Notes under the pieces: model-generated
Database searches by the model: none
Seen by the model: only the letters and a program-made list of their open reading frames with translations
What the model was told of the DNA's origin: nothing
Shown: positions 1,016 to 29,183 of the stretch, in pieces
Position numbering within the stretch: position 1 is the first letter of the stretch
Layout: each line of letters opens with the position of its first letter
Translations under genes and position numbers: made by a program
Assembly: GCA_000993405.1 (NCBI GenBank)
Contig: LBWB01000010.1
Coordinates: 1-32,068, forward strand
Direction of reading: 5' to 3'
Source: Candidatus Woesebacteria bacterium GW2011_GWB1_39_12
GTDB taxonomy: Bacteria > Patescibacteriota > Microgenomatia > UBA8517
DNA: 32,068 nucleotides

Positions 1016-1405
1016 TTAATATTTTCTCCCCTCGCGATAGCTCTTTTTTTGCGCTTTATAAAATTCATCATTATGCTTACCATTAAACATCTTCGCAGGA
1101 TATTTTTCTTCTAATTTTATGATTTTTGATTCAACTGCTTCTGCTAAATCAATCTTTGAATTTTTACAGAAGGTAATTAGATACCAATAAATATCTGCAA
1201 CTTCCGCCGTAATCTCATTCCAATTTTTAGGTTGAATCCCTTTGATACGCCTATCGCTTTCATCCCATTGAAAATGTTCCAGAAGCTCAGAAGCCTCAAT
1301 AACAATAGATTTGGCAAGATCGGAGGGTGCTTGTTTTATCCAACCATGCGCTTCATTAAATGCAAATATGTTTTCTGTAACTTTCTTAATAGCCCCTAGT
1401 CTCAT
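1016..1405 (-). CDS. MazG-like nucleotide pyrophosphohydrolase
   Basis: A 129-aa all-alpha NTP pyrophosphohydrolase of the MazG/dCTPase-like class. These enzymes hydrolyse (d)NTPs to (d)NMP and pyrophosphate and clean the nucleotide pool. Seen: the helix IVIEASELLEHFQW, carrying the ExxE metal-binding pattern, and a second acidic helix EVADIYWYLITFC, matching the second half of the family's metal site. The length fits single-domain members. The start at 1405 follows AAGGA 8 nt upstream. The -35 of its promoter (TTGACT, 1455-1460) lies in the palindrome shared with the divergent gene at 1487. The 75-aa gene follows 8 nt after its stop. The exact substrate cannot be told. Confidence 0.85.
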   Translation of the reverse strand: MRLGAIKKVTENIFAFNEAHGWIKQAPSDLAKSIVIEASELLEHFQWDESDRRIKGIQPKNWNEITAEVADIYWYLITFCKNSKIDLAEAVESKIIKLEEKYPAKMFNGKHNDEFYKAQKKSYREGRKY

Positions 1406-1415
1406 TATTTTTGTT

Positions 1416-1430
1416 TCCTTACATAAAGGA
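1416..1430 (-). promoter_or_regulatory. Small hairpin that pairs the MazG-like gene's Shine-Dalgarno
   Basis: In the minus-strand mRNA, TCCTT (1426-1430) can pair with AAGGA (1416-1420) around the loop TATGT. AAGGA is the best ribosome binding site for the ATG at 1405, so the stem would mask it. It is only 5 bp, so a regulatory effect is speculative. Confidence 0.3.
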
Positions 1431-1487
1431 ATAGTACTTCTTACTCTCTTGTGTAGTCAATACACAACAAGTATAATTTTTACACAA
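1431..1487. promoter_or_regulatory. Divergent promoters with a shared palindromic operator
   Basis: Plus strand: TTGTGT (1449-1454), 17-bp spacer, perfect TATAAT (1472-1477); start codon at 1487, so that transcript would be essentially leaderless. Minus strand: TTGACT (1455-1460), 18-bp spacer, TACTAT (1431-1436), serving the MazG-like gene. The perfect inverted repeat TTGTGTA-gtcaa-TACACAA (1449-1467) overlaps both -35 boxes. A third copy of the half-site TACACAA (1481-1487) sits at the predicted transcription start of the rightward gene. One regulator could therefore control both directions. The ribbon-helix-helix tail of the gene at 1487 is an obvious candidate; that link is inferred. Confidence 0.65.
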
Positions 1488-2080
1488 TGAAGGTATTTTT
1501 TGGTACTACAACCCTCCACTGGAGAGATTACAGGGATTACTACTTCTCAATACGAGACTATTTAAAAGAAATAGGCTGCGTTATACTGCAAGATTGGATT
1601 GACGAGGCTGATAGATTTTACGGAACTCCCTACAAAGATAGAAATATAGCGAAAATATTCAAAACGATAGTCAACGCAATCAATGAAACTAACGTAGTGG
1701 TTATCGAATATACAGTCCCTAACTTCAGCTCTTCACATCAAATTAACTATGCATTATTAAAGAAAAAGCCGACACTCGTCATGCGTTTAACCAAAGATAA
1801 CCCCCGCTTCAGCGACTCATATCTCGAAGCAATTCAGTCTCCCCACCTTACTTTACGAGATTATACAAAGGAAAACTATAAAGAAGTAATTGACGATTTC
1901 TTGGGAATTGTTGAAATTGGTCTTGGAAACCAACGCTATAATATTGTTCTAGAGAAAAAGCAAAAATACTACTTAGATTGGGCGTCAAATTACTATAAAA
2001 AATCACGATCCGAAATGATACGCGAACTTATTGATGGTAAAAGCGATAAAGATAAAAACTATAGAAGGTATCTTAAATAA
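1487..2080 (+). CDS. Nucleoside 2-deoxyribosyltransferase-like protein with C-terminal ribbon-helix-helix domain
   Basis: A 197-aa protein with two recognisable parts. Residues 1-140 look like the Rossmann-type nucleoside 2-deoxyribosyltransferase/TIR-like fold: N-terminal strand MKVFFGTTT, then NETNVVVIEYTVPNFSSS followed by HQINYALLKKKPTLVM, which resembles the family's 'associated with a risk, serine-rich loop, xxGYAxAxxKP' section. Catalysis is not assured because the active-site Glu/Asp cannot be placed safely. Residues about 150-190 (YNIVLEKKQ, then KSRSEMIRELID) resemble an Arc/CopG-type ribbon-helix-helix DNA-binding domain, with an N-terminal contact strand and the typical SRSExIRE turn. 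The ATG at 1487 lies 9 nt after a perfect -10 box. The likely role is a nucleoside- or nucleotide-sensing autoregulator paired with the divergent MazG-like enzyme; this is inferred. Confidence 0.65.
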   Translation: MKVFFGTTTLHWRDYRDYYFSIRDYLKEIGCVILQDWIDEADRFYGTPYKDRNIAKIFKTIVNAINETNVVVIEYTVPNFSSSHQINYALLKKKPTLVMRLTKDNPRFSDSYLEAIQSPHLTLRDYTKENYKEVIDDFLGIVEIGLGNQRYNIVLEKKQKYYLDWASNYYKKSRSEMIRELIDGKSDKDKNYRRYLK

Positions 2081-3148: not shown

Positions 3149-6100
3149 CTGATCCGATCCCGACTCGGGTATTTTACCTCCAATATTTAGTCTTGCCCTA
3201 TCGGGTGTTACCGGTATAAGACGTCCTATAATTACATTTTCCTTCAAACCGTAAAGTTTATCCTCTTTTCCTAAAATTGCCGCAGTTGTAAGAACGTCGG
3301 TGGTCATTTGAAAAGATGCTGCAGAGAGCCAGGATTCCGTAAATAGAGCCCTTCTTGTTATTCCCAAAATTACCTGCTGAGCACTGGCCGGTTCCCCACC
3401 TGCAGCTAAAACTTTTTCGTTTTCCTCTTCAAATGTTGCCTTCTCTACAAGTTCTCCCGGAAGAAGCGGAGTATCACCGGAGGTTATAACCCTGACCTCA
3501 TCACTCATTTTTCTAACTATTACCTCAAAATGCTTGTCGTGAATCGGAATTCCCTGGCTTTCATAAACTCTTTGGATCTCGTTTACTAGATACTCTTGAG
3601 CGGCTCTTAATCCCTTAATTGAAAGGATCTCTCTTATATCCAACGATCCTTCAGCAAGTGGCGTCCCAGCTTCAAGAATATCTTTATCGGCTACAGCCAG
3701 TTTTACTGTTTTTGGAATTATATATTCTCTTTCCTCCTTGGGCTTGGTCTTTGCCGAAGTAATGACCAGTCTCCAACCTTCTTCTGAATCTCCAATCCTA
3801 ACTTTTCCCGAAATCTCCGCCAAAGGCGCCATAATTTTAGGAGTACGCGCTTCGATGAGTTCTTCAACTCTTGGCAAACCTTGAGTCACGTCAATTCCGA
3901 CAACTCCTCCCGAATGTTTTGTACGAAGAGTCAGCTGGGTTCCAGGTTCGCCTATAGACTGTGCAGCAATCACTCCGACCGGTGTTCCAAGTCCAACAAC
4001 TTCTTTATTGCTTAGATCCCATCCGTAGCATTTGGTACAGATACCATAACGGGACGCGCACATTATTGGCGAATAGACTAAAACTTCTTCAGCCTGCAAT
4101 TCATCAATTTGTTTGGCTTTTTCTTCATCGATTATCTCTCCCTTACCGACAATAACCTTTTCTTTTCCACCAACTTTTACTTTGATATCTTCTGCTGCAA
4201 ACCTTCCGTACACTTTCAAAGCAAACGAACGAGACCTACTTCCTCTCTTTAGCAAATAACCTTCTTTTGTTCCACAATCATCTGTTCTAACAATAACGTC
4301 GTGGGCAACATCCACAAGGCGCCTTGTAAGATAACCCGCATCGGCAGTCTTCAGGGCAGTGTCTGTCAAGCCCTTTCTAGCTCCACGAGAAGAGGTCACG
4401 TATTCAAATACTGAAAGTCCCTCTTTAAAGTTAGCTTTAATTGGAAGCTCGACAATTTTACCCAAAGGATCAACAACCAACCCCTGTATTGCGGCAAGTT
4501 GTTTCACTTGATCTCTTGAAACACGACCAACTTTTGCGTTACTGATTACTTTTATTGGATTCGTATCCTCTAGTAAATCCCAGGTCTTGTCTGCCAGTTC
4601 CTCGGTGGCTTCGATCCAAACCTGCTGGCTCAATCTCTTTTTCTCTTCAGAAGTTATAAGACCCTGAGTAAAGTTCTTCTCATGTTCTGATACCTGCTTA
4701 TCTGCTCTTCTTAGATATTCTTCCTTATCGGGAAGAATTTTTGAATCAAATATCCCATAAGAGAGCCCAGAGATTGTTCCTCCGTAAAATCCAAGATCCT
4801 TTATTGCATCAACCATTCTCATAACCGCCTCTTTATCAAGACTTGAGTATGCTTTTGTAAAAACTTCTTTAATCTTTGTAGAAGTCACTGCCTCGTTCAC
4901 AAAATCAAATCCGGTTGGCAAAACTTCATTGAAAAGAATTCTCCCTATACTTGTTGCGAGTAAATTTCCCTTAATTCTCACAGTAATATTTTGCCTCAAA
5001 GCGATCTTACCCACCTGATATGCAAGAAGTGCTTCCTCACTATCAGAAAAGGTTATTTCTGATTCCTTAATATTTGGGTCGATACTAGTAAGATAATAGA
5101 CTCCGAGCGCCATTTCTTTACTCGACGGCGTTGTTATTGGACTCCCATCAGCAGGTCTTAGGAGATTATGTTGTGGAAGCATTAAGTTTTTGGCTTCGTC
5201 AATGGCTTTTCTAGATAAGGGAACGTGTACAGCCATCTGATCACCGTCAAAATCTGCGTTAAATCCGCTACAAACCGCCGGATGAATTCTTATGGCAGAT
5301 CCCTCAATCAAAATCGGATAAAAAGCTTGGATACTTAGTTTATGAAGAGTTGGGGCTCTGTTCAAAATCACCGGATGATCTTTCGTAATTTCGTCTAAAA
5401 TATCAAATACTTCAGGGGGGCGTTTATCGAGCATGTTTTTGGCAGATTTTACATTCGGCGCAATACCTTTAGTTATCATCTCCCTAAGAACAAACGGCTT
5501 AAACATTTCAAGTGCCATATCTTTCGGAATTCCACACTGACTAAGTTTAAGGTCCGGACCGACTATGATTACTGAACGTCCTGAATAGTCAACTCTTTTA
5601 CCCAAGAGATTTTGTCTGAATCTACCCTGCTTGCCCCTAAGCATATCGGAAAGGCTTCTTAAGGGTTGCCTTCCACGACCTCGTCTGGTCGCCTTTCGTT
5701 GTGATGCGTCAATTAAAGAGTCAACAGACTCCTGAAGCATCCTTTTTTCGTTTCTAAGTATTATCTCTGGTGCCCCAAGTTCAATAAGATGTTTAAGTCT
5801 GTTGTTTCTGTTGATAACACGTCTATATAGATCGTTTAAATCGCTCGTTGCAAAACGCCCACCTGATAATTGAACCATAGGTCGCAAATCCGGCGGGAGA
5901 ACCGGAAGGACTTTAAGTACTACCCACGAAGGGTTAATCTTTGCCTTTCTCATTCCATCAACTATCTTTAATTGTTTTGTCAATTTTATATAACGGCTGG
6001 TCGTCCCCTTTGTCTCATCCAACTCTTTTTTCAGATTCACAGCTAATTCTTCTAAGTTAAGTTTTTCTATGGCGGAGGCAACTGCCTCGGCACCCATTTT

Positions 6101-6904
6101 CGCTTCAAAAAAGTCTGTAGCATCGTATTTTACTAACTCGTCAAATTCTTCCTCCGAAAGTATGACTAATGGTTTTAAGCCTTTTACTAGAAGTATTAAA
6201 TTTTCGAAAAGCTGTCTGGTTCTTTCTAAAGTCAGCTTTTCTTCTTCTTGTTGAGTCGTTTCTCTTTTACGAAGGTCGAGGTCGATCTCTGAAATGGTAA
6301 GTACCAGCTGCTCTTTATCTTTAATTTTTTTATTAACTTTTTTCTTCTCTTCATCTGACTTAGTTCTCAGTAATTTCCTTCTCTCTTCATAAAGTTGTTT
6401 TATTTCTTTTTCCCGCACATTGTAGGCTTCTTCCAATCTTATTACAGCACTTTTCTTACCCTTTTCGTCGACATTCAAAACTAAGTATCTTGCAAAGTAA
6501 ATGACTTGTTCAAGCGCTCTAGGAGCAACGTCCAAAAGAAGAGAAACTCTTGAAGGTGCTCCTTTGAAAAACCAAACATGAACTGCGGGTGAAGCAAGGC
6601 TAATATGTCCCATCCGTTCGCGTCTTACTCTAGATTGAGTAACTTCAACTCCACATTTGTCGCATATTACCCCTTTATATCGGATCCTTTTATACTTTCC
6701 ACAATAACATTCCCAGTCTTTTGTGGGCCCAAAAATCCTCTCGTCAAAAAGTCCGTCTTTCTCTGGCTTTAAAGTCCTGTAGTTTATTGTTTCGGGCTTT
6801 GTTATCTCACCTCGCGACCACTCACGAATGTCATCGGGCGATGCCAGACGAATAATCAAACTTTTAAAATCTGTTAAGTTTTTTAATCCTGATAAAGGCT
6901 CCAT
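3134..6904 (-). CDS. rpoC: RNA polymerase subunit beta'
   Basis: The catalytic clamp subunit of RNA polymerase, 1,256 aa, in the range of compact bacterial beta' subunits. Seen in order: N-terminal zinc-binding segment (CYCGKYKRIRYKG then CDKCG), RMGHISLASPAVHVWF, the lid/rudder region around GRGRQPLRSLSDMLRGKQG, the absolutely conserved metal-binding NADFDGDQMAVH, the trigger-loop region around EPGTQLTLRT, and a second zinc site (DDCG then CASRYGICTKC). The protein looks intact. It starts 105 bp after rpoB in an operon and ends 24 bp before rpsL, with the rpsL promoter embedded in its last codons. No clear Shine-Dalgarno precedes the ATG at 6904. Confidence 0.99.
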   Translation of the reverse strand: MEPLSGLKNLTDFKSLIIRLASPDDIREWSRGEITKPETINYRTLKPEKDGLFDERIFGPTKDWECYCGKYKRIRYKGVICDKCGVEVTQSRVRRERMGHISLASPAVHVWFFKGAPSRVSLLLDVAPRALEQVIYFARYLVLNVDEKGKKSAVIRLEEAYNVREKEIKQLYEERRKLLRTKSDEEKKKVNKKIKDKEQLVLTISEIDLDLRKRETTQQEEEKLTLERTRQLFENLILLVKGLKPLVILSEEEFDELVKYDATDFFEAKMGAEAVASAIEKLNLEELAVNLKKELDETKGTTSRYIKLTKQLKIVDGMRKAKINPSWVVLKVLPVLPPDLRPMVQLSGGRFATSDLNDLYRRVINRNNRLKHLIELGAPEIILRNEKRMLQESVDSLIDASQRKATRRGRGRQPLRSLSDMLRGKQGRFRQNLLGKRVDYSGRSVIIVGPDLKLSQCGIPKDMALEMFKPFVLREMITKGIAPNVKSAKNMLDKRPPEVFDILDEITKDHPVILNRAPTLHKLSIQAFYPILIEGSAIRIHPAVCSGFNADFDGDQMAVHVPLSRKAIDEAKNLMLPQHNLLRPADGSPITTPSSKEMALGVYYLTSIDPNIKESEITFSDSEEALLAYQVGKIALRQNITVRIKGNLLATSIGRILFNEVLPTGFDFVNEAVTSTKIKEVFTKAYSSLDKEAVMRMVDAIKDLGFYGGTISGLSYGIFDSKILPDKEEYLRRADKQVSEHEKNFTQGLITSEEKKRLSQQVWIEATEELADKTWDLLEDTNPIKVISNAKVGRVSRDQVKQLAAIQGLVVDPLGKIVELPIKANFKEGLSVFEYVTSSRGARKGLTDTALKTADAGYLTRRLVDVAHDVIVRTDDCGTKEGYLLKRGSRSRSFALKVYGRFAAEDIKVKVGGKEKVIVGKGEIIDEEKAKQIDELQAEEVLVYSPIMCASRYGICTKCYGWDLSNKEVVGLGTPVGVIAAQSIGEPGTQLTLRTKHSGGVVGIDVTQGLPRVEELIEARTPKIMAPLAEISGKVRIGDSEEGWRLVITSAKTKPKEEREYIIPKTVKLAVADKDILEAGTPLAEGSLDIREILSIKGLRAAQEYLVNEIQRVYESQGIPIHDKHFEVIVRKMSDEVRVITSGDTPLLPGELVEKATFEEENEKVLAAGGEPASAQQVILGITRRALFTESWLSAASFQMTTDVLTTAAILGKEDKLYGLKENVIIGRLIPVTPDRARLNIGGKIPESGSDQLSQI

Positions 6905-28037: not shown

Positions 28038-28517
28038 ATGGCTACAATAGATTTTGCAAAAGGAGTTGATTTTTCACCATTGGAAAGACTCGGAGTTAAC
28101 AAAGAAGACGGAATGAAATTTATAGCAGCTTTGTCCCCGATGATTGATCTGGAATTTCAAACGAGAATTAAATCTGCATTTACTGATGAAGAGATGGCCG
28201 CAATCGGAACCGAGGCAGAAGGCAAAGGCATAAAGCCAGAAGACGGGATGTTTTTTCTGGAAGAAAAATATCACGCCAAAACAGGCAGATACTTCATGGA
28301 AGAAATGCGGCTTTTGTTTAACGAATACGTGCACCACGCGGCAAATATAATTGTAAAGGCCAGGCGTGACACAGAAACTTTTACGGAATCGGGAGAGGAT
28401 AATACAAAAAGGTTCGACCAGCTAATGAATGAGAAGAAATACGAAGAAGCGGCGAAGCTTTTTGACGAGGTTTTAAGTAAAACCGAAATCCAAAATCTAT
28501 CTTCGCAAATTACCTGA
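28038..28517 (+). CDS. Helical 159-aa protein downstream of the giant gene
   Basis: I do not recognise it firmly. It is predicted to be nearly all alpha-helical: LERLGVNKEDGMKFIAALSP, QTRIKSAFTDEEMAAIG, then GIKPEDGMFFLEEKYHAKTG and RFDQLMNEKKYEEAAKLFDEVL. Two 'G-x-x-x-E-D-G-M' segments (NKEDGMKF and KPEDGMFF) suggest an internal duplication. The tone is like DUF5663-type helical proteins of Patescibacteria, but I hold that loosely. There is no membrane segment. It starts 4 nt after the stop of the giant gene, so it is almost surely co-expressed with it. Its last 8 bp overlap the vapC stop on the other strand. Confidence 0.75.
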   Translation: MATIDFAKGVDFSPLERLGVNKEDGMKFIAALSPMIDLEFQTRIKSAFTDEEMAAIGTEAEGKGIKPEDGMFFLEEKYHAKTGRYFMEEMRLLFNEYVHHAANIIVKARRDTETFTESGEDNTKRFDQLMNEKKYEEAAKLFDEVLSKTEIQNLSSQIT

Positions 28518-28896
28518 AAAGCTTCTCAAAGTCTTTATCGAAAGAAAAAATTTCTTTCTTCGATGCAATTTCTGAAAGGTAATTATCTACAAAATCAAAT
28601 TTATTTTTAATCATCTTTTTTAGAACCTCCATTAAGATATTCTTTTTGGTCTCAATAATCCTCATATTCTTCAATGCAATTAGTTGTAAAAGTTGTTCAA
28701 GAATTATATTTCTATTTAACTTATACACGCTCCCAAAAGTCCAAATTGTTTCTGCTACCACAACAATCGATAACCTTCCTATCGCTTTTTCGTCTTCGAT
28801 TTCTCTAACCACTTCGACTGCTTTGGCATAATGGATTTCAAGATCTTCTAAGAAATACCTAAGGAGAATATTCGTATCGAAGACATAAGATTTCAT
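28510..28896 (-). CDS. vapC: VapC-type PIN-domain ribonuclease toxin
   Basis: A 128-aa PIN-domain protein; such toxins cleave RNA, often tRNA or rRNA. The acidic active-site residues are visible: FDTNILLRYFL near the N terminus, Glu in VVVAETIWTF, Asp in FDFVDNYLSEIAS, and FSFDKDFEK at the end. Its start overlaps the vapB stop by 4 bp (ATGA-type overlap), giving a standard antitoxin-first operon. Its 3' end overlaps the convergent 159-aa gene by 8 bp, leaving no room for a terminator. The full set of active-site residues suggests it is functional. Confidence 0.92.
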   Translation of the reverse strand: MKSYVFDTNILLRYFLEDLEIHYAKAVEVVREIEDEKAIGRLSIVVVAETIWTFGSVYKLNRNIILEQLLQLIALKNMRIIETKKNILMEVLKKMIKNKFDFVDNYLSEIASKKEIFSFDKDFEKLFR

Positions 28897-29183
28897 TTTT
28901 TAATTTTCCTTACCAAACCATACTTCTTAGCCAAATACTCTGCATAAAGTTTCTTTGCTTCTCTATCAATCTCTTCAATGCTTTTTCCCAAAAGAGAGGG
29001 GTGAACATACTTTTTAAGACTTCCGGCTGTTTCTTCAACAACTGATTTCCTTACAGGTCTTAATCTCAGTGTACCTTTATCTCTCTCGATAAGAACCTTC
29101 TTTTTGGGTTCTAGACCCAAAGACTCTAAGAGATGTTTTGGAAGCGTTATTTGTCTTTTCGACGAAATGGTTGCTATATGCAT
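28893..29183 (-). CDS. vapB: AbrB/SpoVT-type VapB antitoxin
   Basis: A 96-aa antitoxin. Residues 1-50 form the swapped-hairpin AbrB DNA-binding domain (TISSKRQITLPKHLLESLGLEPKKKVLIERDKG). The C-terminal tail (about 60-96: LLGKSIEEIDREAKKLYAEYLAKKYG) would wrap and inhibit the PIN toxin. It is the first gene of the operon and overlaps vapC by 4 bp. Its ATG lies 6 nt after a -10 box, so the message is probably leaderless. CTTTACT half-sites across the promoter fit autorepression by the VapBC complex. Confidence 0.92.
   Translation of the reverse strand: MHIATISSKRQITLPKHLLESLGLEPKKKVLIERDKGTLRLRPVRKSVVEETAGSLKKYVHPSLLGKSIEEIDREAKKLYAEYLAKKYGLVRKIKK

Follow-up and report, generated by a model that had tools for sequence, protein, structure and literature searches.

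We consider it probable (roughly 0.7) that the 197-aa protein encoded at 1487–2080 (+) of the stretch of DNA analyzed here (32,068 nucleotides in all, hereafter the window) is a one-component, non-catalytic, nucleotide-sensing repressor that regulates both its own gene and local nucleotide-pool sanitation. This protein, P0001, joins an N-terminal domain resembling DNPH1/Rcl to a C-terminal ribbon-helix-helix (RHH) tail. In the proposed mechanism, the DNPH1-like half, whose catalytic residues are lost, would be reused as a nucleotide-binding sensor, and the RHH half would dimerize and bind CACA half-sites between the divergent genes. Bound there, it would cover both −35 regions and so repress its own gene and the adjacent nucleotide-pool hydrolase, which is MazG-like here and a NUDIX, Ham1 or YfbR-like HD protein in relatives. 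A nucleotide ligand in the DNPH1-like pocket would shift the affinity for DNA and thereby tune the level of the cleaning enzyme to how the pool stands. MTH1, MazG and Ham1 make (d)NMPs, and YfbR-type enzymes consume dNMPs. As the partners thus release or consume NMPs and DNPH1 binds dNMPs, a deoxynucleoside 5′-monophosphate or a damaged form of one would be the simplest and most likely ligand.

The features of the locus are as follows, with positions given in the window:

1487–2080, + strand: regulator, 197 aa, with a predicted DNPH1/Rcl-like nucleotide-binding domain (approximately residues 1–145) and a very likely C-terminal RHH (approximately residues 148–190)
1928–2077, + strand: segment coding for the predicted RHH DNA-binding tail (profile, AlphaFold2, Foldseek)
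1016–1405, − strand: MazG-like enzyme (dCTPase/XTP pyrophosphohydrolase type), 129 aa, divergent from the regulator, with E37, E40, E68 and D71
1449–1467, no strand: candidate operator palindrome TTGTGTA-GTCAA-TACACAA, exact, conserved in 6 clade I relatives
1481–1487, + strand: TACACAA again, as a third half-site that runs into the start codon of the regulator and is spaced 20 bp from the half-site before it
1449–1477, + strand: candidate rightward promoter TTGTGT-17-TATAAT, read from sequence
1431–1460, − strand: candidate leftward (MazG) promoter TTGACT-18-TACTAT, 9/12 consensus matches, not above shuffles
780–1007, − strand: orphan 75-aa ORF directly downstream of the MazG-like gene on the same strand

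Both main open reading frames of the preliminary description are present, the shorter being MazG-like by PF12643 and PF03819, and an 81-bp intergenic region separates the two divergent genes. Their G+C content is approximately 35%, compared to 41–44% in the nearby fusA, rpsG, rpsL, rpoC and rpoB, and the region containing the module (581–2109, G+C 27–36%) splits fusA from rpsG. The lower G+C and the position between these two genes are consistent with horizontal insertion of the pair into the str operon. The small unknown protein that had been assigned to the module exists, although it lies at 780–1007, outside the 1016–2080 segment described for the module. Its place as a conserved third component is unsupported, as the ORF has no homologue in 281 genomes; nor does it have a match in Pfam, NCBIfam or PADLOC. 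Far from this locus, at 28510–29183, two adjoining ORFs resemble, by eye, a VapBC-like pair of a PIN-domain toxin with an antitoxin of the AbrB type.

The DNPH1-like domain and its family

DNPH1/Rcl is a deoxynucleoside-monophosphate (2′-deoxynucleoside 5′-phosphate) N-hydrolase, a cleaner of the nucleotide pool that sanitizes hmdUMP. By itself, P0001 gives weak matches in a family profile search (PF05014, E 0.12, 13.0 bits against a cut-off of 28.8), and 20/45 homologues match PF05014 at E ≤0.01. With a profile built from the 45 homologues, matches to human and rat DNPH1/Rcl are obtained over residues 3–141 at E values of 9e-20 to 4e-16. When the AlphaFold2 model of P0001 (mean pLDDT 89.2) is compared with the PDB by Foldseek, all 50 matches listed are DNPH1 (target-normalized TM 0.71–0.85). 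Judged by profile and model, the N-terminal domain is nearer to DNPH1/Rcl than to a classical nucleoside deoxyribosyltransferase. The preliminary description had proposed a deoxyribosyltransferase-like domain; the enzyme-fold nucleotide domain stands, but we dropped the identity of a classical nucleoside 2-deoxyribosyltransferase (PF05014), since the match falls below the cut-off and DNPH1 is the better one by both profile and Foldseek.

The full-length family is matched in 130/374 genomes of the class, often as tandem paralogues. The close clade is less frequent: an E value of 1e-25 is reached in 20/380 genomes of the phylum, some of them outside the two clades resolved here. When each species was represented by a single genome, scanning yielded 18 loci, in Roizman-, Doudna- and Saccharibacteria, Dojkabacteria/WS6, WWE3, Paceibacterota and Shapirobacteria. 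Clade I consists of the window, L032, L034 and L063–L066 (support 100/100), and clade II has 14 members (98/94). The two clades are joined with support of 94/86 only with the long-branch row L070 inside, and a topology constraining them together without L070 is not rejected (p-AU 0.21).

Several relatives have other neighbors. L072, L074 and L080 form a separate supported subclade with a divergent HhH-GPD base-excision glycosylase (endonuclease III-like) adjoining, which suggests that the DNPH1-like/RHH family regulates base-damage functions more broadly. Two outlying relatives, L085 (G596, 4219–6438) and L084 (G097, 5366–6592), adjoin thymidylate-synthase-like genes (PF00303); in L085, the order is regulator, fusion of a thymidylate-synthase-like domain with a SAM-methyltransferase, and a gene that is MazG-like by eye, and the three look like one operon. 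A further subclade (L008 and L077) is divergent from Gfo/Idh-type oxidoreductase genes and has TGTACA repeats upstream, and L020 (G134:C15) is an array of at least four tandem family paralogues.

We compared the active site across 61 family members aligned to rat Rcl, comprising 21 from the two clades and 40 other paralogues. The human DNPH1 triad is Y24, D80 and E104 (PMC10603095); P0001 has Phe, Ile and Gln at these positions. The catalytic Asp (equivalent to D80) is absent from 61/61 members examined, and the nucleophile Glu (equivalent to E104) is Gln in 19/21 clade members, is Glu in clade member L040 and is kept in 20/40 of the non-clade paralogues. At the position of the base-contacting His of DNPH1, 20/21 clade members have Trp (W37), immediately preceded by an Asp (D36, at the position of E55 in DNPH1) in 21/21, and all 21/21 carry Asn in place of the phosphate-binding Ser (rat S87). 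By these residues, the domain is probably a catalytically dead DNPH1-like enzyme. Loss of catalysis is compatible with ligand binding, as the Foldseek matches include 8rps, a D80N DNPH1 structure with hmdUMP bound. The replacement of the phosphate-binding Ser in all clade members means that the ligand may be other than a plain dNMP. In the genome from which the window comes, the only other family copy found (L002, G000:C8; 26% identity) still has a Glu where the catalytic Glu is expected, and its divergent neighbor is a gene with a TrpD/thymidine-phosphorylase fold.

Within the clade, the residues lining the pocket (D36, W37, E74, N79, H84 and Q85) hardly vary, and a pocket this constant, but unlike that of the enzyme, suggests that selection maintains it as a site for binding a ligand. 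Such constancy bears on whether the protein might regulate its adjacent gene while sensing a non-nucleotide, or nothing, with the DNPH1-like fold as a mere dimerization scaffold. The Asn at the phosphate site, the loss of the catalytic residues and the lack of a known ligand would all suit a scaffold; however, the near-invariance of six pocket positions goes beyond what a scaffold needs, and every partner is a nucleotide enzyme, so that we regard this explanation as unlikely. A trigger enzyme, in which the domain would still act on some nucleotide as a hydrolase or transferase and double as an autorepressor, would explain why the pocket, with D36 and W37, is kept, and why the nucleophile Glu persists in half of the non-clade paralogues and in L040. 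It seems quite unlikely in view of the missing Asp and the prevalence of Gln at the nucleophile: in human DNPH1, E104Q is an inactivating mutant that was used to trap and crystallize the intact substrate complex (PMC10603095). We therefore favor a non-catalytic sensor.

The RHH tail and the candidate operator

The tail of P0001 itself matches no Pfam family. Among the tails of its homologues (148–197 region), RHH families are the only ones matched by more than one homologue in a profile search (RHH_3 by 6/46 and RHH_1 by 3/46), and a tail profile finds CopG-family chains in the PDB at E values of 0.02–0.3, which are individually weak, as is usual for a 50-residue domain. Modeled alone with AlphaFold2, the 50 residues form a helix pair (pLDDT 94.7), for which the top Foldseek matches include the RHH proteins ParD, VapB, Reg576 and AtaR, each individually non-significant. 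Taken together, the homologue profiles, the CopG chains and the Foldseek matches make it very likely that the tail is an RHH, in agreement with the original assignment.

The palindrome between the divergent genes, likewise recognized at the outset, is exact at 1449–1467, and the third TACACAA is present at 1481–1487. The palindrome alone is only modestly unusual, as one with 7-bp arms within 110 bp was found in 4/300 shuffles, and we accept it as real because it is conserved in relatives. The relative at 58% protein identity carries TTGTGTAATCAATACACAA together with TACACA at its start codon, and five further clade I relatives have 19-mers with 1–4 mismatches to the common consensus. In 6/7 members of clade I, the distance of the 19-mer from the regulator ATG is −37 to −40, and an ACACA half-site near the start codon is also found in L032, L064, L065 and L066. 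Clade II has a variant, GCACATATTGCACAT-N5-GCACAT, mostly at −41 to −46, for which the consensus gives 41 summed mismatches versus 127 in shuffles (minimum 115). Across both clades, we count 51 RCACA/TGTGY sites in 80 bp, compared to 15.6 ± 3.7 in shuffles. For binding of these sites by an RHH dimer with an intermolecular beta ribbon, this conservation is evidence of an indirect kind only.

These sites are nearly unique to the regulator loci. In its own 1.5-Mb genome, the window palindrome is the sole match at 0 or 1 mismatch, and in clade I genomes, the exact clade I pattern occurs at the regulator locus only. The clade II core is found at the regulator locus in 10/10 genomes scanned and is a single site in 9/10, with G722 having one extra site at 1 mismatch; a reversed-pattern control of this core gave zero matches in the same scans. 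With near-unique sites per genome, the regulator looks dedicated to its neighbor. We considered a wider regulon and rejected it: near-matches elsewhere (e.g., G632:C11, G005:C20, G446:C20 and G722:C97) lie within or beside genes that have no obvious connection with the cleaning of nucleotides and are attributed to chance, and in G005, their number is similar in the reversed-pattern control.

The palindrome had also been described as overlapping both −35 boxes. This is correct by position, as both candidate promoters place the −35 inside it, but the promoters are consensus matches only, and in a promoter scan, the real sequence gave fewer promoter-like sites than its shuffled versions did. Because the ATG lies approximately 10 bp past the −10 of the candidate rightward promoter, the rightward transcript would probably be leaderless or have a very short leader.

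Partner enzymes

The MazG-like protein in the window matches PF12643 (E 4.5e-11, 43.3 bits against a cut-off of 27) and PF03819 (4.2e-5), has the pyrophosphatase 4qgp as its best PDB match (4.4e-15), and retains the catalytic acids of the ExxE...ExxD motif (E37/E40/E68/D71). Including the window, a divergent nucleotide-pool hydrolase adjoins the regulator in 20/20 clade members with upstream sequence; 18 of the 20 partner calls are above the Pfam cut-off, that of L034 is below it, and that of L040 rests on a motif only. The commonest class is NUDIX (L032, L035, L036, L038, L041–L044, L046–L048 and L064–L066), while Ham1 is found in L039 and L045. The L034 partner is a YfbR-like HD protein (under the cut-off), and that of L040 is Ham1-like by an N-terminal motif read by eye, with no Pfam or PDB support. 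The NUDIX subtype was checked in three loci: those of L047 and L064 are closest to human MTH1 (E ~1e-16 and ~1e-19 to 1e-20, respectively), and that of L032 is a generic MutT-type protein. In L063, a distant homologue, a three-gene divergent operon (MazG, MazG-like and NUDIX) lies behind the same kind of palindrome, and its MazG-like protein is 48% identical to that of the window. The MazG partner named in the preliminary description is thus retained in this relative, but several partners can stand in for one another, MazG among them, and NUDIX is the commonest overall.

Among the other paralogues, 1/35 upstream neighbors is NUDIX-like (L021, by sequence), and it is codirectional. The partner association, comparing the 18 firm cases to this 1/35, has a Fisher p of 2e-11, a value that is optimistic because the members are phylogenetically related; the density of NUDIX genes is only ~10 per Mb. 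Even so, the tree shows six switches of partner class with no change in the type of function, a constancy for which kinship does not account. The search for homologues thus recovered relatives that keep both the palindrome and a divergent nucleotide hydrolase, which extends to both clades the shared operator and the nucleotide-cleaning link first proposed for this locus.

Toxin–antitoxin systems typically come as small gene pairs with autoregulation by an RHH, and DRHyd-class domains are found in NAD-based defense (PMC9503650), but a toxin–antitoxin or phage-defense module, in which one protein depletes or modifies nucleotides, its partner protects and the RHH autoregulates, is highly improbable here: PADLOC models give zero matches to the regulator, the MazG-like protein and the 75-aa protein, our search of viral contigs, phages and plasmids found no regulator relatives, the partners, drawn from several unrelated folds, are ordinary enzymes of sanitation, and the catalytic residues of the regulator are gone. 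The role in phage defense raised earlier is therefore unsupported, the site itself being a ribosomal-protein operon.

Beyond a nucleotide-sensing local repressor, we tentatively entertain a broader reading, possible but for now doubtful, in which the whole family would be a dedicated transcriptional sensor of damaged (oxidized or non-canonical) dNMPs, derived from a disabled DNPH1-type sanitizer. Its subfamilies would then control pool cleaning (MTH1-like, MazG and Ham1), removal of damaged bases from DNA (the endonuclease III-like neighbors of L072, L074 and L080) and thymidylate-type enzymes.

Comparison with known systems

Cells constantly clean oxidized and aberrant nucleotides, and we are not aware of any transcription factor in bacteria that detects them. 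The P0001 family would be a rare candidate for a dedicated damaged-nucleotide sensor with a named operator and target, and it spans several ultra-small bacterial lineages in which gene regulation is largely unknown. Its pocket is homologous to that of the drug target DNPH1, and the Gln that naturally replaces its nucleophile Glu matches the laboratory substrate-trap mutant, which makes ligand binding directly testable.

P0001 is homologous to DNPH1/Rcl in fold and sequence over residues 3–141, and nucleotide-pool cleaning is the context of both. The P0001 clade differs in that the catalytic Asp is gone, Gln replaces the nucleophile Glu, Trp the base-contacting His and Asn the phosphate Ser, and an RHH is added at the C-terminus. 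The house-cleaning enzymes MTH1/MutT, MazG and Ham1 appear as the divergent partners of this family; to our knowledge, they have no dedicated local regulator of this type, and we found none in the open literature (subscription papers being outside our scope), which likewise yielded no DNPH1-RHH or deoxyribosyltransferase-RHH regulator. With RHH regulators of the CopG/ParD type, P0001 shares the RHH tail, the repeated half-sites and an autoregulatory position between divergent promoters, but its RHH is C-terminal and for a sensor domain it has the relic of a DNPH1-like enzyme. In pairing an RHH with a sensor domain, it is comparable to NikR.

The reuse of an enzyme fold in a one-component regulator has precedents, NrtR being an example. 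What is new here, in that we did not find it in the open literature, is a probably dead DNPH1 domain on an RHH that is tied, via a conserved operator, to several unrelated pool-cleaning enzymes. In NrtR (Nudix-HTH), a nucleotide-enzyme domain has been taken over as the sensing part of a transcription factor (PMC6800001), as we propose for P0001. The two differ in fold, in DNA-binding domain and in the genes controlled, which are NAD or sugar genes for NrtR, and whereas Nudix is the sensor in NrtR, a Nudix protein is the target in the P0001 family.
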